From positions 1-43,069 of IMG/VR virus record IMGVR_UViG_3300047297_000112: DNA of 43,069 bases; one strand, 5' to 3'. Position 1 is the stretch's first letter. Each line of letters opens with the position of its first letter. The notes beneath the pieces were generated by a model. It searched no databases. It saw nothing but the letters and a program-made list of their open reading frames with translations, and was not told the DNA's origin. This document shows, piece after piece, positions 3,081 to 24,788 of the stretch. A program made the position numbers and the translations under genes. The DNA is from a virus.

Positions 3081-5249
3081 ATGAACCAACTTAACAAGAC
3101 TTCGGAAGTGGAAACCCACCCACTGACCAATTGGAAGAATGCACCTACCCTTCAGAATCTTAAGCAGGATCTGTTGGATGCAAAGAATGTCCATGATGCC
3201 CAACAAACCAAGATTGCTGAGTGGCTTGACAATCTAAATGTCACCGGTAAAGCCAAGGTGCAAACACCCAAAGGCAATTCGGCTATTGTTCCCAAGCTGA
3301 TTCGAAAGCAAGCTGAATGGCGATATGCCTCTTTGAGTGAACCTTTTTTGAGCACAGATGACATCTTCAATGTCAAGCCTGTGACTTGGGAAGATCGCAA
3401 TGCTGCCCATCAAAACCAATTGGTTTTGAATCACCAGTTCAATGTTGCTTTGGACAAAACCCATTTTGTTGATGAGTACGTCCGTGCTGCTGTCGATGAA
3501 GGTACTGTCATTGTCCGAGTAGGCTGGGAGTTTATTGAGGAAGAGTACACCGGTACGTTTCCTGTCATTGAGTTTCGGGTAAACCCTGAGCTGGGTCCAT
3601 TGCACGAGCATTTGAACCAGCTGATGGAAGAGTCTCCTAGCGAGTATGAGACCGACGTTCCTGAAGAACTGAAGCAAGCCCACGAGTTGACCATGGAACA
3701 AGGTCAGCCCATTGAAGCTGTGATCATTGGACAGAAAGAAGAAAAGCGCACTCGCACAGTTTCTAATCGTCCTACGTTGGAAGTCTGTGACTACCGCAAT
3801 GTGATCATTGACCCTACTTGCATGGGCGACATCGACAAGGCTGGCTTTGTGATCTACAGCTTTGAGTCTTCGCTTTCTCAACTGGAGAAAGAAGGCAAAA
3901 AGTACAAGAACCTGGATCAAATCAACATCTCGAATAACTCGATCCTGGGAACTCCTGACCATCATTCTTCTGATGGCACCAAAAGCTTCAACTTCAGCGA
4001 CGAGCCTCGCAAGAAGTTTGTGGTTTACGAGTATTGGGGCTACTGGGACATTGATGGTTCTGGTGTGGTTCAACCGTTTGTGGCTTCTTGGGTAGGCAAC
4101 ACCATGATTCGCATGGAAGAGAATCCCTTTCCAGACAAAAAGATTCCGTTTGTCATTGAGCAATACTTGCCTGTGCGTAAAAGCAGCTACGGTGAGCCGG
4201 ATGGTGCTTTGCTAGAAGATAACCAGAAGATCATTGGTGCTGTGACTCGCGGCATGATTGACATCATGGGTAAGTCTGCCAATGGCCAGACTGGTTTGCG
4301 CAAAGACATGCTGGATACCACCAACAAACGCAAGTTTGATAAGGGCCAGGATTACGAATTCAACTCTAACGTTGATCCTCATCAGGGTGTGTACATGCAC
4401 ACCTATCCTGAGATCCCAGCTTCGGCCCAGTTTATGCTTGGTTTGCAGAACCAAGAAGCTGAGTCTATGACTGGCGTGAAGTCCTATTCTCAGGGCGTCT
4501 CAGGTGCATCTTTGGGCGATGTGGCTGCAGGTGTGCGTGGTGCACTGGATGCTGCTTCCAAGCGTGAGCTTGGTATCTTGCGTCGCTTGTCAAATGGCCT
4601 GGTTAAGATCGGCCGCAAGATGATCAGCATGAATGCTGAGTTCTTGTCGGATACTGAGGTCATTCGCATCACCAATGATGAGTTTGCGGTGGTCAAGAAG
4701 GACGATCTGCCTGGCAATTTTGATCTGCGCTTGTCCATTTCGACTGCTGAGGAAGACAACAACAAAGCAGAGCAGCTGGCTTTCCTGTTCCAGACTGTAG
4801 GCCCAAATGCAGACCCTGATTTGACAAAAATGATCCTGGCTGACATTGCCAAACTGCGCAAAATGCCTGACCTGGCCAAGCGAATTGAGGCATACCAGCC
4901 TCAGCCAGACCCATTGGTTCAACAAAAGGCTCAATTGGAGATTGAACTGCTGAAAGCTCAGCTTGCAACAGAACAAGCCAAGGCAGCAAGCTACCAATCT
5001 CAAGCTCAATTGGACTTGGCTAAAGCAGGAACTGAGGGCGTGAAGCAGGGCAACCTGCAATCAGACACTGATCTGAAGAACTTGGATTTTGTTGAACAAG
5101 AATCTGGAGTAAAGCAAGAGCGGGCTAAGGAATTGCACGGTGAACAGGCTCGTAGCCAGGTGCAATTAAAGCTTTTGGACCGAGAATTTACTAAAGAAGA
5201 CCAAAAAACTGACCTATTAAAGGAATACCTTAAAAATAAAGGCCAGTAA
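3081..5249 (+). CDS. Portal protein
   Basis: The dodecameric ring at the capsid vertex through which DNA enters and leaves. At 722 residues it has the size of N4-like portals. It contains the long mixed alpha/beta body expected of the family (for example the KKIPFVIEQYLPVRKSSYGEP region and the GVSGASLGDVAAGVRGALDA segment). A glutamine- and alanine-rich C-terminal coiled coil from about residue 610 (LEIELLKAQLATEQAKAA) probably forms the crown or barrel. The Shine-Dalgarno is GGAGAA at 3066-3071, 9 bases before the ATG. Terminase and connector genes are upstream; the scaffold and capsid follow. A stable hairpin lies just after the stop. The family call rests on size, position and overall pattern rather than on a short diagnostic motif. 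Confidence 0.85.
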   Translation: MNQLNKTSEVETHPLTNWKNAPTLQNLKQDLLDAKNVHDAQQTKIAEWLDNLNVTGKAKVQTPKGNSAIVPKLIRKQAEWRYASLSEPFLSTDDIFNVKPVTWEDRNAAHQNQLVLNHQFNVALDKTHFVDEYVRAAVDEGTVIVRVGWEFIEEEYTGTFPVIEFRVNPELGPLHEHLNQLMEESPSEYETDVPEELKQAHELTMEQGQPIEAVIIGQKEEKRTRTVSNRPTLEVCDYRNVIIDPTCMGDIDKAGFVIYSFESSLSQLEKEGKKYKNLDQINISNNSILGTPDHHSSDGTKSFNFSDEPRKKFVVYEYWGYWDIDGSGVVQPFVASWVGNTMIRMEENPFPDKKIPFVIEQYLPVRKSSYGEPDGALLEDNQKIIGAVTRGMIDIMGKSANGQTGLRKDMLDTTNKRKFDKGQDYEFNSNVDPHQGVYMHTYPEIPASAQFMLGLQNQEAESMTGVKSYSQGVSGASLGDVAAGVRGALDAASKRELGILRRLSNGLVKIGRKMISMNAEFLSDTEVIRITNDEFAVVKKDDLPGNFDLRLSISTAEEDNNKAEQLAFLFQTVGPNADPDLTKMILADIAKLRKMPDLAKRIEAYQPQPDPLVQQKAQLEIELLKAQLATEQAKAASYQSQAQLDLAKAGTEGVKQGNLQSDTDLKNLDFVEQESGVKQERAKELHGEQARSQVQLKLLDREFTKEDQKTDLLKEYLKNKGQ

Positions 5250-5267
5250 AAGCTTTATAGTACGGAC

Positions 5268-5289
5268 TTGAAGCATTTCGATGCTTCAA
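5268..5289 (+). terminator. Hairpin with TTCG loop after the portal gene
   Basis: A perfect 9-bp stem, TTGAAGCAT (5268-5276) and ATGCTTCAA (5281-5289), closed by a TTCG tetraloop, followed by TTCTATT. The T-run is short, so it may be a weak terminator or an mRNA-stabilising/processing hairpin rather than a full stop. Confidence 0.55.
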
Positions 5290-5321
5290 TTCTATTAACT
5301 TAACAAAGCACTGGTAGACCC

Positions 5322-5669
5322 ATGAGCAACGAAACAATCCAAGCGATTGAGGACAACATCAAGCAGGCACGAAAGATCGTGGAAGTTGGGGATGCTCTTG
5401 AGCGCCTCAAAAATAATCGCGATTTCAAGAAAGTCATGCTGGAAGGTTACTTTGAACAAGAGGCCATTCGTTTGGTTCACTTGAAAAGTGATCAGAATGT
5501 CCAAAGCGCTGAAATGCAGAAGTCCATCATCGCTCAGATTGATGCTATTGGTGCTGTAAGCCAGTACCTGAGTACTGTGCTACATAAAGCCTCTATTGCC
5601 CGGAAAGCAATTGCATCTGATGAAGAAGCTCGTGATGAGCTGCTGGAAGAGGAGCTGAACAATGGCTGA
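5322..5669 (+). CDS. Small helical protein between portal and scaffold (unknown)
   Basis: A 115-residue protein, predicted almost wholly helical, with acidic ends (DELLEEELNNG at the C-terminus) and a heptad-like middle. It has no catalytic motif, signal peptide or membrane segment. Its stop overlaps the start of the scaffold gene by 8 bases, so the two are probably translationally coupled and made together. The portal-scaffold position suggests a head-assembly accessory protein, perhaps binding portal or scaffold, but this is inference from context only. I do not recognise a named family. Confidence 0.65.
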   Translation: MSNETIQAIEDNIKQARKIVEVGDALERLKNNRDFKKVMLEGYFEQEAIRLVHLKSDQNVQSAEMQKSIIAQIDAIGAVSQYLSTVLHKASIARKAIASDEEARDELLEEELNNG

Positions 5670-13418: not shown

Positions 13419-16400
13419 ATGGCTGAATTTGATCTCGATGCCTACTTGAACAACAAGTTGGGCAATCCCAATCCAGGAAAGGTTGATGACGTTCTTCGAG
13501 CAAAAGATGCCAAGATTGTTGAGCTACAGCAATTTCGAGAAAACCTGGCCCAGAACACTGACAAAGCTTTGACTGCGCAGACTATTGTCAATGGCCGCAC
13601 TTGGGGCGAGTATGGTAAAGATGTTGCGCTTTCTGCCGTTCAGGGTTTGGACACTTTAGCCAAGCTTCCGGCTATGGCTCTTGACAAAGCTACCGAAGGA
13701 AACTTCTACGGCACTGAAACCCAAAAAATCAGTGCAATGTCAGACGAGCGAGAAAAGCTCAAGTCCGCTTTTGCACAAGCCAAGGGCCAGCAAAAAGCAC
13801 AAGCTGCAAAAGAAGCAGGTGAAGCAGCCAAAGCCTATGTGGGTGAAAGCGCACTGGGAACCGGTGCACAGATTGCTGCTGAGTTTGGTTCAGCTTTCTG
13901 GGAAGCCGCCAAAGATCCTGGCAGTCTTCCTGAGTTCTTGGCTCAACAAGTTGCTCAGCTGGGTGTCATGGGCAAAGTCGGCCGTGCATCAGAGCTGGCA
14001 GCTCAATCTGTTTTGAAAGCAGCTCCTGCTCTTGCAGCTACAAAGGCTGGCCAGGCTGCTGTCAGTCGAGTGGGTACTGCCGGCGCTGTTGGAACCGGTG
14101 CAGTGCTACAGGGTGTTGACGTTGGTTCGGACACCATGTCTCGTATCATGCAATTGCCTGATGGGGTGTGGGGCCAAAACCCTGAGTTTATGGCCCGAGC
14201 CAGTGAGATTGGTGCTCCCGCTGCCAAGCAGGAGATTGCATCTCGTTTGGCTTCTGAGGCAACTATCCAAGGTGCAGCAACTTCGCTACTGTCGGCTGCT
14301 CTGCCTGGTGGTACAGCCATTGAAAAAGCTGTTATGGGCAAATCCTTGGGTGGCATCAAAGCGATCCCCAAAGCGTTTGTGGGGGAAGCTGGACAAGAAG
14401 GCATTGAAGAAGGTACAGGCAAGTTCTTTGGCAATGCAGGCGTCAAGCAAATTGACTCGACTCAAGCGCTGTCTGAAGGCGTTGGTGCTGCAGCCGGTCA
14501 AGGTGCTTTCTTAGGAGGCGCTTTAGGCGGCGGCATCAATGGTGTGCAAACAGGCTTGAATGCGCTTGGCAACATTGGTTTGGAAAAACGTGAAAAAGAA
14601 GCCACTCGCTCAGAGGCCGTTAAAGCCGCGATCGAGTCAGGTAATGTCAGTGCCTTGGTTGATCCCAAAAACCCTGTCTATGCCCCAGATCAGGCCATTG
14701 CTGCACTGTTCGGCAACAGTCAGAAAGAAGGCACCACACCGGAAGGCAAGCAAGCCAATCTGGAACAAGCCTCCAAAATCATTTCTGACTTGGAAAGCCA
14801 ACGCACAAAAGCTGAGCAAGCCTACGCTACGGTATCCCCAGAAGGAATTGCGCAGTATCAAAATCAGCTTGCTGAAGCAGACCTGGCTGGCAATAAGGAA
14901 CTGGCTACGTTGTTGAAAGAGCAGCTTGCTGATGCCACCAAAGATACAAAATCGGCTGAACGGTTACAAAACCAAATCAACCGAATTGACGGTCAACTGA
15001 CTCGTGCCCGAGAAGTTCTGACTGCATTCAATCAACAAAACCAGTCTACCGACTTTGATGTTGACGCTGAAGTTGCCAAGATCACTCCTGCTGATCCTGT
15101 GGCTTCACAAGATGCTGCAAGCCGCATCATCAATTTGTCGATGGCCATCCCTGAGCGCCTGAATGCAACTGTGGCTGACTCTTTGGCTGCTGATAGTTCT
15201 AACGGCTTGTCGGAAAGCCAACGCACGTATTTGCGAACATTCTCTCAAGCCCGTATTGCAGAGAACTCATTGAAAGACATGGGCAAAGTCTCAAAGGAGA
15301 TTTACTCAGGCTCTGCTCCAAATGCCCCTGGCATCAAATACATTGGTTTGACAAACTACCGTTCCAATGTGACTGCAGCCCTGGCTGCTGGCAATCAATC
15401 AGCGGCAGACAATCAGTTGGGCATGTTGACTCGGTTTGAGGCCAATCACCAGAACAAAGCACAAGCTGCTTCGGAAGCATTGAGCGCATTTCAGCAAGAC
15501 GGCATTGATCGCCGCATTGTCCGTAATGCAAACGGAGACTGGTCTATTGAGCAAGGCCTGTGGGCTGACAATAAACAACGTGTGTTGAATGGTGGATTGA
15601 ACATCAACAACAACGCTGAAAAATTGGTTGCAGACACTCAGACTGAAGCAGAAGCAATCTTTAAGACTGCTGCTGAGTTGAAGGCTGCGTATGCAGTAAA
15701 GTTTGGTTCAACTAATGTCGTTGGAGCCAGCAATGTCCAGAACGTATCGCAAGCATCCGAAGGAATTCAGGGGACCAAAGAGAAGCTTCCAGCCGAAGCC
15801 TCGCAAGAAATTGGAACCACTGAATCAAGTGCAACTGCAAGAACCGATGGTGTTGCAGCAACGGTTGGAGGTGAGCCTCCGGCCTCTTCTGTGAAGACTG
15901 TTGCAGATGCTCCAGTTCAAGAGCAACAGCAGTCTACTGAGAGTACCAGCGATGAGACTGAACAGGCAACAGAGACTGTTGGTCTTACAGCACTCCAAGA
16001 AAAATCCCCGGAGGGGACTTCACACGATCAGAAAAAACTGGGTGATTTTTTTACCCAGTCGGTGGGTAAAGAAACTGACGGCTCCAAGCGTCCTTTGGTT
16101 GCTGTCAAAAACTTCATGTCAGCCGTCGCTGCTGGCACAGTCAAGATTGGCCAGTACATCAAAGACCAGAACTTGGGCGAAGGCTCCAAGCCAATGGCTT
16201 GGGCAAAGTTTGTTGAGAAGGCTGCAGCCTGGGCACCGATCATTACCCGCAATCTGAAAACCGGAGTAGATCAACGGTTTCACTATCTGAACCCGATTTT
16301 GTTGATGCAGGTGTTAAGTGCCGAAGGAAAATCAACAGCTGAGATTGAAGAGAACGTCAAGACAGCGATTGCTGCTGCAGTGTTTGGCTACACTGCTGAC

Positions 16401-19400
16401 CAGGCAGGCCGACCAGAGCTCAACGATGACAAAGCCATCAACGGCATTCTGGGTCGAAGCAAAGATTCGCCTGTCAGTCCAGATGCCAAGGAGCTGCTTG
16501 CCAATGTCGGTGTTTACCAGTCTCAAGTGATCGACTCTCTTGGCTCGGCTGTGATGGATGCGCTGGGCTTGAAACTGAACCCAAATGCTTCTCAAGACAT
16601 GCTGGCCAAGATGCGTGTATCTTTGGGTGGGCATGCATTGAAGCTGATGGAAGACACTGGTTTGTTGGTTCGCAGCGACATGACCAATGGTGAGATGAAC
16701 CGCCTTCGCAGCGAGAACCTGTTTGAAGACAGCGAATCTGGAAACCAAACCAATGAGGCGGTTTCCTTTTCGGACAGCATCAAAGGGCACATCTTCTTCA
16801 AACTGGCTCGAGACAAAGCAGGTGAACCTGCCGGTGCAGCCAAAGAAATTGCCGATGCAATCAAAGGCTCTCAGAGTTTGATTCAGAATCTGTTTGGCAT
16901 TGAGTCGAGCATTGCATTCCCAAGCCTTACTCCAGCAAAGGGCCTGCAGAAAGAGTCTGACACTGGCATGGGCTTGCCTGGCTTCATGAAGAAAGTCTTC
17001 AAGCTGAACCAGTCTCGTCCTTGGAAAGTCAACAAGGATCCACTGACTGTGCTGAGCTTCTTCTCTGAAGAAGAAGGCATGGCCATGGCCGGCATTGAAG
17101 ACTCGAGCGAGCACACTCACCGACGCAACTTCAACAGCAAGCGTGCCAAGAACGATGGCCTGAGCCGCGAGTTTCGCAACTTTATGGAGTTTGTTGGAGA
17201 GCTGGCTACCAGTGAGAAGAAACTGGATCAGGAGTTCTACCTGAACCAGGAAATGTGGAAGCAGCAGCGTTCTGGCTATAAGTCCACCACTGTCAATCCC
17301 AACACCAGCAAGATCGTTCGTTGGCTCGTGGCTCCTGACAGCTGGAGTACCGAGATCAAGTTGAACGATGAGGCACAGTTGCAGTCCTTTATGCTGCGTG
17401 CATCGGAAGGCTTTGGCATCAAGCCAGAGAAAGCAGACAGTCAAAAGGCTGTCGATGATCTGGCCAAAGTGATGCAAGACCCAACGATGCAAGCTGCAGT
17501 CAAAGCATTGCAGGCTGTGTTGTTTTCAAAGGATGCTCAGCTGTCCGAACAGCAACGCATGGCCATCATGGAAGCGGTGACGGCCGGCAAACAGAAGCTG
17601 CATACCTTGGCCTCGTTGATTGCCTATGCACGCTACCAGCAAGCTGTGGACACCAATGCAGAAAGCTTCACTACCAATCTTATGGGTGAAGTGGACGGTG
17701 TGTCTAACGGATCGATCCTGAACTCGATCATGTACGGTGCTGCTGCCACTGCAGAGCAACTGAACACGCTGCTGGAGAAAGGCGGTATCTACACGCTGGG
17801 CAGCAAGTTCAACCAGTACAACCTCTGGAGAGGTACGCCTGGTCATCAGGACATCTACGAGTCCAACGCTCAGGACTTGCACACCTACGTCAACTCGATG
17901 CCCGAGAGCACTAGAGTTGTGACAGCTGCGATCTGGAATACTGCTGGTTCTCCGATCAACGCTGCACAGGAAGCAACGAAAGACGGCCGTGATTTGTTGA
18001 AGGGGCCGATCAACCCGCTGAACTATGGCGGGGGCTTTAAGAGCATCATCGGCAAGATGGCCTACAACTACGTGGACACCATCTACGAGAAACTCGAAGG
18101 CTTTTCACGCAAAGGCGCTGACCAGGCTACTGTCTACGAGTTCGTTCGCAATGTGAACGTGCTGCTTGCTGCTGGCCGTGCACCTCAAATGCCAATCGGC
18201 AAACCTATTGCCTACTACTTGGGCTACACGCTGTCCAAGGCACAGGAAGCTGCACTACGTAAAGCCTACTCCGAGACGATTGGCGTGGCTGCAAAGGAAG
18301 TGGTGGGAACCAACTTCAAGCCATTCCTGGATAGAAGCAAGCTGGTGACGCAGACCGTCAACCTGACTTATGGTTTGTACGAGGCGATCTACAACGCTTC
18401 TCGTGAAGCGATGATTAAGGAGATGGGCATCCCGATGAAGAGCGGTGAGCCCATTCACGATCTAACCGTGGCTCAGGAAGTGGAACTGACTGAACGCCTG
18501 AAAGACATCCTGCCTGTGATGCACACGGTGATGTCCAAGGACGAAGGCTTTGTCGAGAACGGCATCTTGCTGGCCAAGAAAACCCGCAAGCAGAACAACG
18601 CTGCACCGTACAAGGTGGTGGTGGGTTTTGGTTCGAAGCTGAAGAACGATGCCAGCCAACTGACTGCATCCGGTCGATCTACAGTACAGACCGATCCTGG
18701 TGTGATCGCCATCTCTGGTACGACGCATGCGTTGGACAGTGCTGTCTCCCATGCAGTGCAGGAAGCCAACCATGTTTTGAACAACCACGATGCTGTGGGT
18801 GCTGGCATCAATGTGCTGGGCGAGTCTGCTCAGTTGCTGAACAAGAACACCTGGTCCAAGACGCTTAACTACTCTCCGTTGAACGAAGCTCACGATGCAC
18901 TGATGCGTGTGGTTCAAGGCATTGTTGCCATGGATCAGCGTGGTGAGTTGACGCCTGAGATGAAGGCAGCGATCAAGGACAAGCTCAAGGAGCTGTCCAA
19001 GAAGAATCGTGGCAGCAAAGTCGAGTCCATTGTGGACACCACTGCGTTCAACATCTTCAACGAAGCCCTGGAAGCCAACCGCATCAAGTTTGGTGCGATG
19101 GCTCAATGGGTTGTGGTGGATCAGTACGCCATGGACGGTGGCAGCTACCAAGTCACGGATGCCGATCGTCAGGAAGCCCAGAGCCGGCTGGATGCGCTAA
19201 GCCCTGTCCGTGCAGAAGCTGATCTGCAAGCCCTGAATGCGCTGGCTTCTTCTTTGTTTGGCTCAGGAGCCGTGAGCGCCGCGCCGGTTGCACCGGCAGC
19301 GGCTGCTCCCAAGGCGACTGTGACCAGTTTGTTTGGTGCAGTAGGTACGCCTGCTATTGCCAGCGACCAGGATCTGGTCGAGTTCTTTGAGACCACGCCG

Positions 19401-22400
19401 GAAGCTTCTGCAGCACAGGTTATCAAGCTGCTGGGTGCAGAAGGGCGGATGAATGTTATCAACCGCAAGATTCTGCAGTTGGTTTCTCGAGTGGTCAGCC
19501 CTGATCTAAAGATTAAGTTCGTGACCTCTGAGACGGCACCGAGCATGGTGCTTGAGAAACCCACGACCAATGCCCGTGGCTGGTTTGTGATCAAGGATGG
19601 CCAGGAAGAGATTTATGTCTTGAGCCCTGAGTTCGTGAACTCTGGCTTGACGGCCGAGACGTTGCTCCACGAGCTGGTGCACGCTGCCGTGGCTCGTGTG
19701 ATTGACCAGCCGTCCAAAGACGCTCAGGAGCTAGTGGCCGAGCTTGAAGCACTCCGAGTTAAGGCCCAGGAGTACGCAACAGCCAATGGCTTGACCCAGT
19801 ACGTGCCTGCTTTGGCCAACGTGCAAGAGTTCGTGGCTTGGGGCATGAGCAACCTGGGTCTGCAGCGTGATGTGCTGACAAAAATCACAATGCCATCCAA
19901 GACAGGCTCAAACCGTCTAATCAACGGCATGCAGAAGTTTATCTCTGCACTGACCGGTCTGTTGTTCAAGAAGCCTGATGCCAACATTGACAATGGCCTG
20001 GCTGTGCTGGTCAGCAATGTGTCAGGTTTGTTCTTTGAAGCATCCCAGGTCACCGCCCGTACCGAGATCAATTTGAATCTCGCTCAAGAAACTGTTGAGC
20101 CAATTGACGCTTACACGACCTTGGACATCCACCAGGCGCTCGATAACGGCACGCTGGAGCCCGACTTTAAGGATCACCTGGCCAACCTTCTGGGTGGCAT
20201 CGTTCAGCGCCTCCACGGCCCGTATGGTGCGTTTGCTGCGGCCATGCGCAAGACCGAGGCTGGCAACCCTCTGGCGGTATGGCTGAAAGCCTTGGAAACA
20301 GGTCAGGCACCGTTTGCCTCAAAGATCGTGGCATCGGGATTTGCAGGGTCTGCTCAGGAAGACTTTGCGATGCAACAGGTAGAAGCTACTGTAAAGGCCG
20401 CATTGGATGGCAACGAGTCTTTGACCAAGATTGCTTACAAGCAATTGTCCGACCTTTACACCGAGGTCAAAGGCAAGCTGAAGCCGTCTGACTTTAAGTC
20501 CCAAGCAGACTATGATTTTGTCTTCAAGCTAGAGAGCGATAACGGCGATCGCTCTGATTACCTGGCTCGATTTGCTGCTCTGGGTCTGGCCAATCAGCAA
20601 TTCAATAGCATGTTGAAAATGGCCACTGAGCGAGATACTCGTCGGTTTGGTGAAGGCCAAACTTTCACTCAGCGTCTTGAGAACATCTTTGAAAAGATTG
20701 TGGCTTTCTTCAATGAAAAAGTCACCAAGACTTATGCAGGCCAAAATGCTGATGAAAAGCTTGAAGCTTTCGTCGGTCAGTTGGTAGACATTGAAGCTAA
20801 GAAGCGACATGCAATCAAACGCAAAGCAACACGCACCAACTACTTGGCTCCGGTAGAAGAGGGTGCCAAGAAAGCAACTGATGCCATTCGTTCTAAGGTA
20901 GGTGACCTTGCGGGTTCAGCGTTTGTGCGCAACAACAGTTTTGCTGTGGTTCGTGCTGCAGGCGGGTTGGCCCGTACTGTGGCAAATGATCAAGTAGAGT
21001 TCTTCCTAGATGGTTTGCAGCGTTTGAGAGACAAAGAGTTCACTGGCCGACAAGGTGTTGTTGCTGGTTTGCTGACTGACTTAAAAGGGCCGTTGGCGCA
21101 CTTTGCTGCGCTGCTACGTGAAACAAAACGCCATGAAGGTGAACGCAAAGCCATTATTTCTCAGCATGCCAAGCTGGCGCTGAGCACGTTCTTGAATGGC
21201 AAAGACCTCAGTGCAGAAGCTAAAGCCAGCATCACGTCAGTGTTCATGCGGACGGGTATGCATAACCTGCTTGAGTCAATGGGCTTGGCTGATCTGGAAA
21301 AGTTGGTTGGCGATCCTGTTGAGTTGAACAAAGCAATTGCTGCTGTGGAAAGTCAACTGACTGGAAAGCTCAAAGACCGCTACATTGAACAAGCTAATGC
21401 GTTGGGTTTCTACAAAGCAACCGGTAAGTCTCGCAATCCTGTTTTGATGCTGAACGCTTACCTGATTGCTCGAATGGCCGGTACTCAGTTCAAAAAGCAA
21501 GTGACTGAACAAGAAGCCAAACAAGTTGAGGCAACCATTGCTTCACTGGTTTCGTTGTACGCCTTGAAATACACCAGCGTTCAAGACCTGGCTCAAGCCA
21601 AGCAGGTGTTCCGTTCTGAGAACATTCGCACTGACGGCAACGGAGTAGAGTTTGTACTGAAGCTGCACAAGCAAATGGAAGCTGAATCGTTGGAGCGTTT
21701 GTTTAAAGGTAATCCTGCTTTGATGATTCACGGCTACACGCCTGAAATCTTAAATCCGCACACCGCTATTGCAATTGCTGATGAAGCAGAGGGCGCAAAC
21801 CTGGAAGCCCAAGGTTATTCCAAAGGAGCCAAGGTCACGCAAGATGCTGCTGATCCTGACAAGACCAGCAAGCGCATCTACGTGTTGCGGGATGGTGGCT
21901 TGATGTCATACTTGACTGGAGTGTTTTCTTTGAATGGCTTGCAAGCCAAAGGCACAAAGAAGCAAAACGGCTATGTAAATGTCACTACACAAGCAGGCCT
22001 GAACAACGCAAGCCTGCAAGCAGACATCACCAATGCCAAGCTGCAGTCATTGCAAGGCAAGAACGATCCTCGCCGTGATCTGTCTCAGCAGTCTGGCAAT
22101 TACCTGGTGCCTGTGTTCAACGAGATGGGTGAAATTGTGAATTGGCGTTACATGATGGCCGAAAGCACAAAAGATACATTGCTGGAACGAGACAACCGCT
22201 TTGAGAACATTCTGGGTGTGTTGGCTGGCTCGATTTATGACAAAGAAACTACGCAACAGCAAAACCTGAAAGCAGTTGAAGTGTTGCTAGAGCAATTCAA
22301 TTCTGAGTACGCAACACGCAGTGATTCTTACATTGAGATTGGTGAGCGTAGTGCCGATCCTGAAATGCAAGCCATTTGGAATCTGTTGCCAGAGGCCACA

Positions 22401-23552
22401 AAACGTGATGTACGAAAGGTCTGGGGACGCAACGGCATGAAAGTCCGTAGTGATGCTTTGGACTTGATGTTTGGATACCGCAAGTTGTCTGCAGCTGAGT
22501 TCTTGAGAAACGATCCTGAGACTCTTCAAGGTGTGCAGAAAATCATGCGTGAATGGTTTAACACCTACGCACGTTCACGAGGTATGGATGAACAAGAGGC
22601 CGACAACTATGCCAAGCGTCTTGGCTTGGCTTTGACCAAAGGCGAGCGTGCATGGCAGGAAATTGTTCGGGAAGCCAAGGACCTCATTGTGGTCAAAACA
22701 GGTGTAGTGATGTTGGGCAACATCTGGTCGAACATCTCGTTGTTGGCTATGTCTGGTGTGCCATTGAAAGACATGCTGCACCACCACTTGGTGGCAATGA
22801 AAGGCGCAACTGCATATCAACGAGACAGCGAGCGTTTGGCACAATTACAAACAGTGCTTGAGGTAGGCTACAACGCAAACGATGCACAACAGATTCAAGA
22901 CGAAATCGTTCGATTGAAAGACGCCATTGCGCGTAACCCTGTGCGTGAATTGATTAAAGCCGGCTTAATGCCAACCATCGTAGAAGATGTTGCGGCCGAA
23001 GAAGACATCTACTCATACAAAAATGCTTTGGCACGGAAGGCAGAACGCTTTACCAACCAGTTGAACCCTACGATCAAAGCGGTTGGACGAGTGGCCTACA
23101 TGTCTCACGACACCAAGATGTATCAATCGCTGAGTCGTATCACGCAGCTGTCTGATTTCGTGGCTCGATACACCCTGTACCAACACCTGACGACGCGCAG
23201 CAACAACCCGTTGAGCCAAGCAGATGCAATCCAGGAAGCTTCTGATGCGTTTGTGAATTACGACATTCCAATGCATCGTGGAATTCAGTTCACTGATGAC
23301 ATGGGTTTTACGCCGTTCACTAAATATTTCTTGCGCATTCAACGTGTGCTGTTGAAGCTGGCTCGTGAAAACCCTGCTCGAGTATTGATGGCAATTGGTT
23401 TGAATAGCTACATGGACTTAGGCCCCATCGTGTTAGAGAGCTCATTCACACACCACATTGGAAACAATCCGTTGCGGTCGGGCGCATTCCAGTTCCCTGG
23501 AGCGCTAGATGATCTGGCCACAGTCAACGCTGCAATGGCGGTGTTGAAGTAA
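13419..23552 (+). CDS. Giant virion-associated RNA polymerase (N4 vRNAP-type) with HExxH domain
   Basis: A 3,377-residue polyvalent virion protein, injected with the DNA in N4-type phages to transcribe early genes. The polymerase core lies at about residues 860-1930. Motif A is VDGVSNGSI with catalytic Asp1426. Motif B is R1524-x3-K1528-x7-Y1536-G. Motif C is NNHDAVG with His1790 and Asp1791, preceded by THALDSAVSH. A TxxGR-like element (WKQQRSG, Arg1284) is degenerate. Spacings (142, 102 and 263 residues) are close to those I recall for N4 mini-vRNAP. The N-terminal third is Ala/Gly-rich with a glycine-rich hydrophobic stretch (about 354-380). After an Ala/Pro linker (about 1945-1972) comes an HExxH zinc-peptidase-like motif (His2084, Glu2085, His2088; possible third ligand Glu2137). 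The C-terminal 1,100 residues are helical and unassigned; in N4 this part serves encapsidation. Confidence 0.9.
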   Translation: MAEFDLDAYLNNKLGNPNPGKVDDVLRAKDAKIVELQQFRENLAQNTDKALTAQTIVNGRTWGEYGKDVALSAVQGLDTLAKLPAMALDKATEGNFYGTETQKISAMSDEREKLKSAFAQAKGQQKAQAAKEAGEAAKAYVGESALGTGAQIAAEFGSAFWEAAKDPGSLPEFLAQQVAQLGVMGKVGRASELAAQSVLKAAPALAATKAGQAAVSRVGTAGAVGTGAVLQGVDVGSDTMSRIMQLPDGVWGQNPEFMARASEIGAPAAKQEIASRLASEATIQGAATSLLSAALPGGTAIEKAVMGKSLGGIKAIPKAFVGEAGQEGIEEGTGKFFGNAGVKQIDSTQALSEGVGAAAGQGAFLGGALGGGINGVQTGLNALGNIGLEKREKEATRSEAVKAAIESGNVSALVDPKNPVYAPDQAIAALFGNSQKEGTTPEGKQANLEQASKIISDLESQRTKAEQAYATVSPEGIAQYQNQLAEADLAGNKELATLLKEQLADATKDTKSAERLQNQINRIDGQLTRAREVLTAFNQQNQSTDFDVDAEVAKITPADPVASQDAASRIINLSMAIPERLNATVADSLAADSSNGLSESQRTYLRTFSQARIAENSLKDMGKVSKEIYSGSAPNAPGIKYIGLTNYRSNVTAALAAGNQSAADNQLGMLTRFEANHQNKAQAASEALSAFQQDGIDRRIVRNANGDWSIEQGLWADNKQRVLNGGLNINNNAEKLVADTQTEAEAIFKTAAELKAAYAVKFGSTNVVGASNVQNVSQASEGIQGTKEKLPAEASQEIGTTESSATARTDGVAATVGGEPPASSVKTVADAPVQEQQQSTESTSDETEQATETVGLTALQEKSPEGTSHDQKKLGDFFTQSVGKETDGSKRPLVAVKNFMSAVAAGTVKIGQYIKDQNLGEGSKPMAWAKFVEKAAAWAPIITRNLKTGVDQRFHYLNPILLMQVLSAEGKSTAEIEENVKTAIAAAVFGYTADQAGRPELNDDKAINGILGRSKDSPVSPDAKELLANVGVYQSQVIDSLGSAVMDALGLKLNPNASQDMLAKMRVSLGGHALKLMEDTGLLVRSDMTNGEMNRLRSENLFEDSESGNQTNEAVSFSDSIKGHIFFKLARDKAGEPAGAAKEIADAIKGSQSLIQNLFGIESSIAFPSLTPAKGLQKESDTGMGLPGFMKKVFKLNQSRPWKVNKDPLTVLSFFSEEEGMAMAGIEDSSEHTHRRNFNSKRAKNDGLSREFRNFMEFVGELATSEKKLDQEFYLNQEMWKQQRSGYKSTTVNPNTSKIVRWLVAPDSWSTEIKLNDEAQLQSFMLRASEGFGIKPEKADSQKAVDDLAKVMQDPTMQAAVKALQAVLFSKDAQLSEQQRMAIMEAVTAGKQKLHTLASLIAYARYQQAVDTNAESFTTNLMGEVDGVSNGSILNSIMYGAAATAEQLNTLLEKGGIYTLGSKFNQYNLWRGTPGHQDIYESNAQDLHTYVNSMPESTRVVTAAIWNTAGSPINAAQEATKDGRDLLKGPINPLNYGGGFKSIIGKMAYNYVDTIYEKLEGFSRKGADQATVYEFVRNVNVLLAAGRAPQMPIGKPIAYYLGYTLSKAQEAALRKAYSETIGVAAKEVVGTNFKPFLDRSKLVTQTVNLTYGLYEAIYNASREAMIKEMGIPMKSGEPIHDLTVAQEVELTERLKDILPVMHTVMSKDEGFVENGILLAKKTRKQNNAAPYKVVVGFGSKLKNDASQLTASGRSTVQTDPGVIAISGTTHALDSAVSHAVQEANHVLNNHDAVGAGINVLGESAQLLNKNTWSKTLNYSPLNEAHDALMRVVQGIVAMDQRGELTPEMKAAIKDKLKELSKKNRGSKVESIVDTTAFNIFNEALEANRIKFGAMAQWVVVDQYAMDGGSYQVTDADRQEAQSRLDALSPVRAEADLQALNALASSLFGSGAVSAAPVAPAAAAPKATVTSLFGAVGTPAIASDQDLVEFFETTPEASAAQVIKLLGAEGRMNVINRKILQLVSRVVSPDLKIKFVTSETAPSMVLEKPTTNARGWFVIKDGQEEIYVLSPEFVNSGLTAETLLHELVHAAVARVIDQPSKDAQELVAELEALRVKAQEYATANGLTQYVPALANVQEFVAWGMSNLGLQRDVLTKITMPSKTGSNRLINGMQKFISALTGLLFKKPDANIDNGLAVLVSNVSGLFFEASQVTARTEINLNLAQETVEPIDAYTTLDIHQALDNGTLEPDFKDHLANLLGGIVQRLHGPYGAFAAAMRKTEAGNPLAVWLKALETGQAPFASKIVASGFAGSAQEDFAMQQVEATVKAALDGNESLTKIAYKQLSDLYTEVKGKLKPSDFKSQADYDFVFKLESDNGDRSDYLARFAALGLANQQFNSMLKMATERDTRRFGEGQTFTQRLENIFEKIVAFFNEKVTKTYAGQNADEKLEAFVGQLVDIEAKKRHAIKRKATRTNYLAPVEEGAKKATDAIRSKVGDLAGSAFVRNNSFAVVRAAGGLARTVANDQVEFFLDGLQRLRDKEFTGRQGVVAGLLTDLKGPLAHFAALLRETKRHEGERKAIISQHAKLALSTFLNGKDLSAEAKASITSVFMRTGMHNLLESMGLADLEKLVGDPVELNKAIAAVESQLTGKLKDRYIEQANALGFYKATGKSRNPVLMLNAYLIARMAGTQFKKQVTEQEAKQVEATIASLVSLYALKYTSVQDLAQAKQVFRSENIRTDGNGVEFVLKLHKQMEAESLERLFKGNPALMIHGYTPEILNPHTAIAIADEAEGANLEAQGYSKGAKVTQDAADPDKTSKRIYVLRDGGLMSYLTGVFSLNGLQAKGTKKQNGYVNVTTQAGLNNASLQADITNAKLQSLQGKNDPRRDLSQQSGNYLVPVFNEMGEIVNWRYMMAESTKDTLLERDNRFENILGVLAGSIYDKETTQQQNLKAVEVLLEQFNSEYATRSDSYIEIGERSADPEMQAIWNLLPEATKRDVRKVWGRNGMKVRSDALDLMFGYRKLSAAEFLRNDPETLQGVQKIMREWFNTYARSRGMDEQEADNYAKRLGLALTKGERAWQEIVREAKDLIVVKTGVVMLGNIWSNISLLAMSGVPLKDMLHHHLVAMKGATAYQRDSERLAQLQTVLEVGYNANDAQQIQDEIVRLKDAIARNPVRELIKAGLMPTIVEDVAAEEDIYSYKNALARKAERFTNQLNPTIKAVGRVAYMSHDTKMYQSLSRITQLSDFVARYTLYQHLTTRSNNPLSQADAIQEASDAFVNYDIPMHRGIQFTDDMGFTPFTKYFLRIQRVLLKLARENPARVLMAIGLNSYMDLGPIVLESSFTHHIGNNPLRSGAFQFPGALDDLATVNAAMAVLK

Positions 23553-23585
23553 AAGAAAAGCCCCTGTCTCGAAAGAGCAGGGGCT
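23551..23585 (-). terminator. Minus-strand intrinsic terminator (end of RNA region)
   Basis: Stem AGCCCCTG (23559-23566) with CAGGGGCT (23578-23585), extended inside by CTC/GAG around a GAAA (plus sense) loop. Read on the minus strand, the stem is followed by TTTTCTTTT; on the plus strand there is no T-run. The stop signal therefore points leftward, ending transcripts that cross 23586-24211. Confidence 0.8.
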
Positions 23586-23600
23586 CTGTGATGGCACACC

Positions 23601-23798
23601 ATCATTGAAACGTACTGGGCTTGATTCCAGTTTAGCAACCCACTAGCCGTTGCCGCCGATTGGATGGGCGTCCCCAGGGCCAACTCCATTTTTCTATAAG
23701 CACCTTCGCAGGGCAACCGCCGGGGGGCCACTCCCGCGCTACCTTGAATGTTTCTGCATCGTGCCTAGCGTGTCCATCCACGCCGACGTTTCAATGAT
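23601..23798. repeat. Perfect 12-nt long-range inverted repeat
   Basis: ATCATTGAAACG at 23601-23612 is exactly complementary to CGTTTCAATGAT at 23787-23798. The arms are 174 nt apart and would close a domain holding the GC-rich part of the structured region. Confidence 0.85.
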
Positions 23799-23800
23799 AG

Positions 23801-23945
23801 TTCCCGTCTCTCCGGGATGTCACACGAATGTTCTTGTGCTGTTGCTTGCCCAAGGGGTTAGTGCACTACCCTTGCGACTCACACTGGTTGATCGTGTATA
23901 ACCGCTGCTCGTTGATGTTTGGTTTCTGTCTCTCCAGAATGTCAC
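23801..23945. repeat. Two copies of a covarying hairpin module
   Basis: Copy 1 is at 23801-23823 and copy 2 at 23923-23945. Each has a 5-bp stem, an identical TCTCTC loop (GAGAGA on the minus strand) and an identical TGTCAC flank. The stems are TCCCG/CGGGA and TTCTG/CAGAA. The only four differences in 23 positions form two compensated C-G to T-A pair changes. Confidence 0.85.
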
Positions 23946-24077
23946 GCCGTTCTGCTGGACTTCTGCACTCCAGGCGTTCTCATGTCGCAATTACTCGCAA
24001 TCCAGCTTGGGCGGCACCTCGCATCTTGGGCCGACAATTCACAAGCCAAGGCTTGCAAGAGAAATAAGTTGATGTCG

Positions 24078-24148
24078 CTATCAAGAAAGCAGCCTGTCCC
24101 TTTAACCACATCTCCAAAGAGTTGTAATTCAGGCCGCTTACTTGATAG
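24078..24148. repeat. Long imperfect hairpin in the structured region
   Basis: Left arm 24078-24096 and right arm 24130-24148 pair as CTATCAAG/CTTGATAG, AAGC/GCTT and GCCTG/CAGGC. They are separated only by the single mismatches A24086-A24140 and A24091-C24135. The 33-nt apical part contains a further small CTC/GAG hairpin. Confidence 0.8.
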
Positions 24149-24211
24149 TCATCCCTTACGGGGATGAATCGGACTGCCAGATTTTATAGCCTTCCTGCAG
24201 TCAATGCCAGG

Positions 24212-24517
24212 CTATTGCTTGATGAGAATTTCCTCAAGAGTCCCACCCTTCTCAAGGTGATTCTGAACCCATTGGGGTTTACTTCCTCGACCGGACCAGA
24301 AGTTGGAGCCGGATTGATACTTCATAGCAACCTTGGGCCTATTGGAAATAGGCTTTGGGGGCTCACCAAAAGTTAGGTCTCTGGAACGAATGCCAAAAAT
24401 TTTTATCTTGGTGTTGATGTCTTCAATTGCAGCGGTTCGAGCTTTGCTGAGTAAAGTGTCTCTTTCTTTTTGCAAAGCGTCGATTTGCTTTTGAAGCTCA
24501 TCTAGCTGGTTTGCCAT
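24212..24517 (-). CDS. H-NS-like nucleoid/xenogeneic silencer protein
   Basis: A 101-residue protein with the two-part H-NS layout. The N-terminus is a coiled-coil oligomerisation helix (LDELQKQIDALQKERDTLL). The C-terminus is an AT-hook-like DNA-binding motif (FWSGRGSKPQWVQNHLEKGG), which matches the WSGRGRKPKW signature of H-NS/MvaT-type proteins, with a Phe-Trp start. Such phage proteins can bind AT-rich DNA, act as decoys for, or mix with, host H-NS. The start at ATG 24517 is preferred because of AGAG about 6 bases upstream and because it gives the normal length. An in-frame ATG at 24649 would add 44 charged residues but overlaps the next gene. It is the last gene of the minus cluster, and the structured RNA region follows its stop. 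Confidence 0.85.
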   Translation of the reverse strand: MANQLDELQKQIDALQKERDTLLSKARTAAIEDINTKIKIFGIRSRDLTFGEPPKPISNRPKVAMKYQSGSNFWSGRGSKPQWVQNHLEKGGTLEEILIKQ

Positions 24518-24557
24518 GGGTATCTCTTTTGATTTGGGTGGCTTGTCAAAAAGTTCC

Positions 24558-24788
24558 TCAAGAGCTTTCTTGGGTTCTTCTTTCCTCGCCTTTTGACGGG
24601 CTTGTTGGTACTGATTCGTGCTCACAGTATTCCTTGATACAGAGGGCAATCATTGCGATGACAGCTGCGCCCAACAGGATTGCTCCTGATGCAGCAACAA
24701 GTGCTGAAATGAGCGCACCTCCGATCAATAGTACAGCGAGAACGAGGATTGCGGCTAGTGTGTAGCCGATTCCTTTAAGCACGCCCAT
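24558..24788 (-). CDS. Small two-helix membrane protein (holin-like or unknown)
   Basis: A 76-residue protein with two closely spaced hydrophobic stretches (residues about 9-30 and 33-50, Ala/Leu/Ile/Val-rich with Gly) and a charged, Ser/Glu/Lys-rich C-terminal tail. There is no cleavable signal peptide. The topology would fit a small class II holin-like protein or another inner-membrane protein, but no endolysin or spanin gene is near, so I do not name it a holin. It overlaps the possible N-terminal extension of the H-NS-like gene in another frame. The upstream Shine-Dalgarno is poor (GGGGG close to the ATG), which leaves the start uncertain. Confidence 0.55.
   Translation of the reverse strand: MGVLKGIGYTLAAILVLAVLLIGGALISALVAASGAILLGAAVIAMIALCIKEYCEHESVPTSPSKGEERRTQESS

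Follow-up and report, generated by a model that had tools for sequence, protein, structure and literature searches.

GOLLD and ROOL are large structured non-coding RNAs found in phages and prophages. They are often encoded near tRNAs, their function is unknown, and they form RNA-only cages held together by A-minor and kissing contacts (PMC12286853, accessible part of the article). Phage ICP1 makes an abundant ~800-nt transcript between gp139 and gp140, which its authors, in the excerpts available, likened to GOLLD and ROOL (PMC7567579). The putRNA of phage HK022 is about 70 nt long and has two adjacent long stem-loops beside early promoters, as described in the sections at hand of PMC9378689.

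Here we analysed a viral DNA stretch of 43,069 nt (the window), in which two similar hairpins lie at 23801-23945. Short two-copy repeats often arise by chance. The original prediction held that the two copies differ only by compensatory changes, and this was borne out. The copies at 23801-23823 (module c) and 23923-23945 (module b) mismatch at 4 of 23 positions (3, 5, 14 and 16 only), which make up two compensatory stem pairs (3-16 and 5-14), each C-G in one copy and T-A in the other. The loop and the TGTCAC flank show no difference, also as described. By simple counting, the chance that four random differences make up two whole pairs in a 5-bp stem is 0.0011, and about 1.3e-4 if both pairs must also be compensatory. 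A stronger and independent test was the covariance model R1, for which 50 sequences were taken from other contigs and none from the window. In the search of the whole 43 kb for further copies, R1 matched exactly two places, and these are the two hairpins (39.5 bits and E 3.9e-7 for module b, 37.2 bits and E 1.2e-6 for module c); the third-ranked match had E 0.28 with filters off.

The RNA reading of the hairpins is on the minus strand, GUGACA-N4-G-GAGAGA-C-N4'-A. They appear to be copies of a compact RNA module composed of a 5-bp helix P1, the linker GACA, a 5-bp helix P2 with the loop GARAGA, and a following A. The GU of GUGAC belongs to P1, a second helix that was absent from the original prediction. 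The last pairs of P1 are commonly A-U and C-G, its loop holds an insert of variable length, and its 3' strand ends at the U of UGAC. P2 has a G-C closing pair and its stem covaries freely, while the linker and the loop are nearly fixed. Conservation is limited to about 27 nt and drops sharply beyond (144 non-redundant instances).

An exact 5-nt partner for P1 was found 3-60 nt upstream in 94 of 170 instances, where shuffles gave 29.5 on average and 38 at most; the other 76 had no such partner within 60 nt. With inserts of 60-150 nt the count was 29/170 against a mean of 18.6. Partners of 6 nt were at the control level (6 versus 5.7), so P1 stops at five pairs. Among the matches listed with a GGCGU-type P1, ACGCC stood upstream in 59 of 98, compared with a mean of 8.4 for other permutations, and a purine preceded it in all 59 cases. 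We also counted the loops of all hairpins of equal geometry within 800 nt of the modules, modules included. There were 184 GGAGAGAC, 12 GGAAAGAC and 1 GCAGAGAC (closing pair included); the share of GGAGAGAC is given by construction, since the loci were mostly collected by this loop, and the result is the absence of other loops. Beyond 800 nt, 18 hairpins of module geometry had 18 different loops. GGAAAGAC was the only repeated loop variant seen (L028, L116, L205, L214, mEp390, Pokken, P7641, Alexa and Medea1).

The pairing of P2 could be judged on sequences that had been collected without it. A first pattern (5' flank, part of one arm and loop) found 35 viral stretches, and 33 carried the complementary arm that had not been asked for. 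A looser pattern, with only the 5' flank, the loop and one 3' base, gave at least 120 viral matches, which is a lower bound of abundance. Among the matches listed, all four unspecified P2 pairs were present in 96 of 109 non-redundant instances (72 all Watson-Crick), and each pair was kept in 101-107 of the 109, compared with maxima of 64-86 in 1000 shuffles. Full P2 pairing was absent in 13/109 of this set and in 17/142 in another count. A longer pattern had at least 119 matches in viral contigs, with 87 of 98 fully paired among those listed; the looser- and longer-pattern sets share loci, and both are unselected for pairing. When the loop of the longer pattern was permuted, the same viral collection gave 0 matches. 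In 257 Gb of bacterial and archaeal contigs, the longer pattern found 40 stretches, where 32 of 41 instances were fully paired and 9 were not. The record titles there span several bacterial phyla, and we take the organisms to be Proteobacteria of several classes, Chloroflexi, Firmicutes, Cyanobacteria, Acidobacteria and Planctomycetes. Two ORFs overlapping the module in these contigs match a DNA methyltransferase and a phage head maturation protease.

Alignment A3 and R1 comprise 50 of 94 distinct instances, hand-picked from 75 with several unpaired ones knowingly left out, and the pair statistics of A3 are therefore flattering. At E 0.01, R1 missed one of 29 records in which the pattern finds a module (that of L013). 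Two scans for paired modules gave nothing in one case and only L006 in the other. Blast of the regions of L018, L174 and L170 against phages gave no match, and a 41-nt piece of L018 gave four weak ones. The original claim of selection on structure is thus strongly supported by independent sequences, through P2 pairing against shuffles, pairing in the longer-pattern set and RNAalifold. The reading of the hairpins as chance products is contradicted by the shuffles, the permuted-loop scan and R1, and we set it aside. From sequence, we regard it as nearly certain that the module is a structured RNA and selected as such, and the predicted module is found singly or in tandem, mostly at a single place per record, in phages from a wide range of hosts.

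Both window modules lie in a 659-bp ORF-less gap (23553-24211, minus strand) between the ORFs 13419-23552 (plus) and 24212-24649 (minus). Overlapping the gap are short ORFs (82-107 aa, starting with TTG or GTG) that were not counted as genes. The gap would encode a putative large structured non-coding RNA. Its minus strand folds at -250 kcal/mol with z -3.60 and its plus strand has z -2.81 (20 shuffles each), so both strands beat shuffles. The Rfam scan of the window gave no match at gathering score, and the whole gap as a query against Rfam, phages and plasmids found no homolog. No tRNA was found in the window.

All parts of the putative RNA are on the minus strand. On its 5' side, alignment A2 places the hairpin CAUCCC-CGUAA-GGGAUG (24150-24166) where L028 and L116 have a GGAAAGAC module; it has no R1 match, and we tentatively consider it a possible lost or replaced module. 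A long 5' arm (24078-24148) contains a 19-nt inverted repeat (24078-24096 and 24130-24148, 89% complementary) that is paired in the predicted fold. In module b, the P1 5' strand ACGCC (23973-23977, within GAGAACGCC) belongs to a helix found by RNAalifold on 14 homologs, and its partner GGCGU (23944-23948) was located by the P1 partner search and RNAalifold. R1 then places the GACA linker at 23943-23940, the P2 5' arm at 23939-23935, the loop GAGAGA at 23934-23929 and the P2 3' arm at 23928-23924 (23924-23943 as a whole). In module c, the P1 5' strand ACACGA (23892-23897) stands 64 nt from its partner strand UCGUGU (23822-23827, P1 partner search), and is followed in R1 by the GACA linker (23821-23818), the P2 5' arm (23817-23813), the loop GAGAGA (23812-23807) and the P2 3' arm (23806-23802; 23802-23821 as a whole). 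A long arm past module c (23598-23801) is likewise paired in the predicted fold, through a 16-nt inverted repeat (23598-23613 and 23786-23801, 94% complementary). The sequence and a terminator search point to an intrinsic-terminator-like hairpin with a U tract at 23551-23585 as the likely 3' end of the RNA, although such a site is weak by itself, since 2 kb held 5 of them where 2.8 would be expected. Module c is overlapped by a match to a sigma-70-like promoter (10 of 12) at 23823-23794 on the minus strand, which is probably chance, as two sites were found and 1.2 expected.

The gene upstream of the gap (24212-24649, minus) is co-directional and has an H-NS C-terminal domain (Pfam PF00816, E 1.1e-8). 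The convergent ORF on the other side (13419-23552, plus) encodes 3377 aa without a Pfam match, and occupies the place that the virion RNA polymerase gene has in N4, judged by position only against 98PfluR60PP and N4. Among the neighbouring genes are matches to portal, major head and N4 gp53-like proteins, which makes the window a distant relative of the Schitoviridae.

A pattern for the module b domain found 16 stretches. We inspected 17 loci, namely 15 of these stretches, the window and L172 (L007 was left out as it overlaps L028), and aligned 14 of them without the near copies L207, L211 and L213. RNAalifold predicted P1 and P2 and no other helix. P2 varies with compensation in this alignment; P1 is invariant because the search pattern fixed it, so P1 covariation cannot be judged there. 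By eye, L028 has AUACG/CGUAU at the P1 of module c, and the G-to-A change in GUGAC is thus compensated. R1 matches L035 at three places. In 8 of the 17 loci, counting the window, the RNA faces a convergent giant ORF whose C-terminus is related, and 3 have an H-NS-like gene upstream. In L214, two T-arm-like stretches (GGTTCGATTCC) stand upstream of module b; ARAGORN finds no tRNA in them, and they are possibly tRNA-like pieces within the RNA.

Searched whole, 39 of 40 viral records had matches to the module, always on one strand; all but one of the 40 had been chosen because the module was present. Two or more modules occurred in 10 of the 39, and in 8 of these all lay within about 500 nt, the remaining two having modules 3 and 41 kb apart. 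On the minus strand of L085, at about 4930-5480, five tandem units GCGACACC-[variable insert]-GGUGUGAC-[P2 hairpin] can be recognized by eye. In a set of 181 instances, pre-filtered to have four pairs or more, 89 modules were overlapped by an ORF of 80 aa or longer, and in 135 each of the three sense frames had a stop within 180 nt. Ten of the 15 long overlapping ORFs listed were tested; 8 had no Pfam match and the domain matches of the other 2 miss the module.

Named phages have the module too. With a 53-nt piece of L060 as query, 37 phage records matched (E up to 10), several of the weakest probably by chance (four Aeromonas rows, and two Mycobacterium rows in which the match falls outside the hairpin). 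Under the match, 26 of the 37 records had no annotated feature, 9 had a gene and 2 were without any annotation. Nine were opened (mEp390, Pokken, CS01, P7641, Alexa, Medea1, MD18, Pag-Yong1 and RcCWillis), and each had at least one R1 match with E 0.002 or better. Pokken, an N4-like phage of the Schitoviridae, has a module with the GGAAAGAC loop beside tRNAs, and in MD18 the module lies between tRNA-Leu genes. It is present in Pasteurella phage Pmp13 and Aggregatibacter phage S1249 as well, and module-bearing records include ones classed as Hendrixvirinae, Drexlerviridae and Casjensviridae. Sequence like parts of the mEp390 region was found in 35 of 5,426 E. coli genomes, and 10 plasmid records have sequence like parts of the P7641 gap, both being region matches and not module counts. 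In the Planktothrix phage Pag-Yong1 (L291 2198-2803), a short protein annotated as a Cas9/Csn1-family endonuclease is encoded directly downstream of the two-module RNA gap.

The best explanation, to which we assign a probability of roughly 0.5, is a portable module in a large structured phage non-coding RNA of the minus strand, with docking loops and a scaffold role. Its parts differ in strength. That the module is part of a stand-alone non-coding RNA is very probable, whereas docking of the loop in a scaffold has, by our analysis, slightly less than an even chance. A nearly invariant loop with a variable stem, a fixed linker and a helix of fixed length points to a tertiary contact or a protein site. 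Docking of a purine loop would fit the near-invariance of GARAGA, and GARA, in our view, resembles a GNRA tetraloop with two extra bases, a loop of the docking class. The original prediction suggested kissing by this loop, which for Watson-Crick pairing is not supported, as the complements are not enriched in the 400 nt upstream of modules: TCTCTC occurs in 5/183 stretches versus 7/174 control stretches, CTCTC in 29 versus 25 and TCTCT in 21 versus 30. For this reason A-minor-type docking is favoured. The near-invariant purine loop would dock by non-Watson-Crick, A-minor-type contacts on a helix of its own or a neighbouring RNA, each docked module would form a fixed corner bearing a variable arm, and with several modules the RNA might become a compact scaffold or oligomer. 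Such an RNA would work like GOLLD and ROOL without belonging to them.

The chief rival of the docking and scaffold reading is that the module is the site of a phage or widespread host RNA-binding protein, with tandem copies as a sponge or assembly platform. A protein site would fit a module this compact, with nearly invariant letters where it is single-stranded, a stem free to vary, flanks that are not conserved and a copy number that differs, but the record titles span several phyla, so the shared protein would have to be nearly universal or always phage-encoded. Moreover, no constant neighbour gene was noticed, short of a systematic comparison, and the fixed 5+5 bp geometry with P1 exceeds what a simple hairpin site needs. 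We consider this reading somewhat unlikely. It is improbable that the module is a cis-acting leader, that is, a processing site, a translation element or a put-like antiterminator for the next gene or tRNA. A same-strand tRNA does start 16-27 nt after the loop start in 13 of the 181 instances, by eye several modules are followed by a ribosome-binding site and a start codon, and 73/181 have module-strand ORFs on both sides (20/181 on neither). However, a terminator-like hairpin separates the RNA from the next gene in the window and, by eye, in Alexa and Medea1, and similarity between loci extends far upstream, covering 46/181 at -450 nt, part of which is probably coding. R1 was also not above chance in HK022 26-36 kb, the stretch assumed to hold the put sites (best E 1.7).

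Two further readings carry far less weight. A self-cleaving ribozyme or RNase processing module separating precursor units could account for a small conserved core adjoining RNA boundaries and for tandem arrays, yet past P2 the only conserved letter is an A with no further mark of a cleavage site, and the scans gave no Rfam ribozyme match, which makes this highly improbable. The original prediction had also offered hairpin promoters for an N4-type virion RNA polymerase, and the N4-like character of the window would agree with this. The N4 promoters are hairpins with 3-nt loops at early promoters, while the module loop has 6 nt and the window modules lie at the 3' end of a cluster of genes that runs towards the giant gene, a strand and place that suit an RNA end. 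Since the module is also found in Hendrixvirinae, Drexlerviridae and Casjensviridae records and in bacterial contigs, and R1 has no match in 28 kb of N4 (20-48 kb), we give the promoter reading next to no credence.

GOLLD/ROOL-type phage RNAs have odd shapes and no known function, and a shared short module would offer a sequence handle to find and compare more of them. The hosts of the module include easily grown lambdoid and podo-type phages, in which scaffold, cage or sponge roles could be tested, and the module could serve as a natural modular part for RNA nanostructures. A bolder idea, which we regard as rather unlikely, is a near-universal phage 'RNA connector', a ~27-nt module that unrelated phage lineages would string in any number into custom RNA scaffolds or cages, with GARAGA docking within or between molecules.

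Finally, we compared the module with known systems. CsrA/RsmE sites have GGA in a hairpin loop; GGA is found in the module too, but there the first G is part of the closing pair of the stem, and the invariant stretch is much longer than GGA. A weak match to CRISPR-DR16 (E 7.2) and the ATTGAAAC end raised the possibility of a CRISPR repeat, which was dropped because the second copy has no ATTGAAAC end and no array was seen. The gap resembles the ORF-less gaps of N4 (gp47-gp48) and 98PfluR60PP between replication genes and the virion RNA polymerase gene, which contain tRNAs, and the module was not found in the 98PfluR60PP segment. In N4 (EF056009, L216 12114-13632), the gp47-gp48 gap is 1519 bp without an annotated CDS, with long hairpins and a terminator-like end, and ARAGORN finds in it four tRNAs (Asn, Ser, Thr and Pro) that are absent from the feature table.

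The Rfam 15 scans of the window and 41 distinct loci (39 module-bearing and 2 N4-type) gave only tRNAs at gathering score; GOLLD and ROOL had no match at this score and were not among the listed sub-threshold matches. The open-access literature searched names no such module among the matches listed, and the available portion of PMC2864571 has neither GAGAGA nor GUGAC; preprints and subscription journals are outside this coverage, so it may be in print. The ICP1 transcript, as far as the excerpts describe it, is likewise a phage RNA in an ORF-less gap, and ICP1 75-124 kb had no module by script search or R1 (best E 4.2). The HK022 putRNA, in the sections at hand, is similarly a phage RNA of two adjacent stem-loops, while the module helices have only 5 bp each. 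A tRNA lies within 1500 nt in 39 of the 181 instances, in keeping with GOLLD and ROOL, which are phage-encoded and often near tRNA islands. With these two families the locus would share the character of a large structured phage non-coding RNA, and differ in that RNAs otherwise unlike one another use the same short module, in differing numbers. As far as sequence comparison goes, the kind, a large structured phage RNA, is known, and what appears to be new is the portable module, which is not in the families compared.
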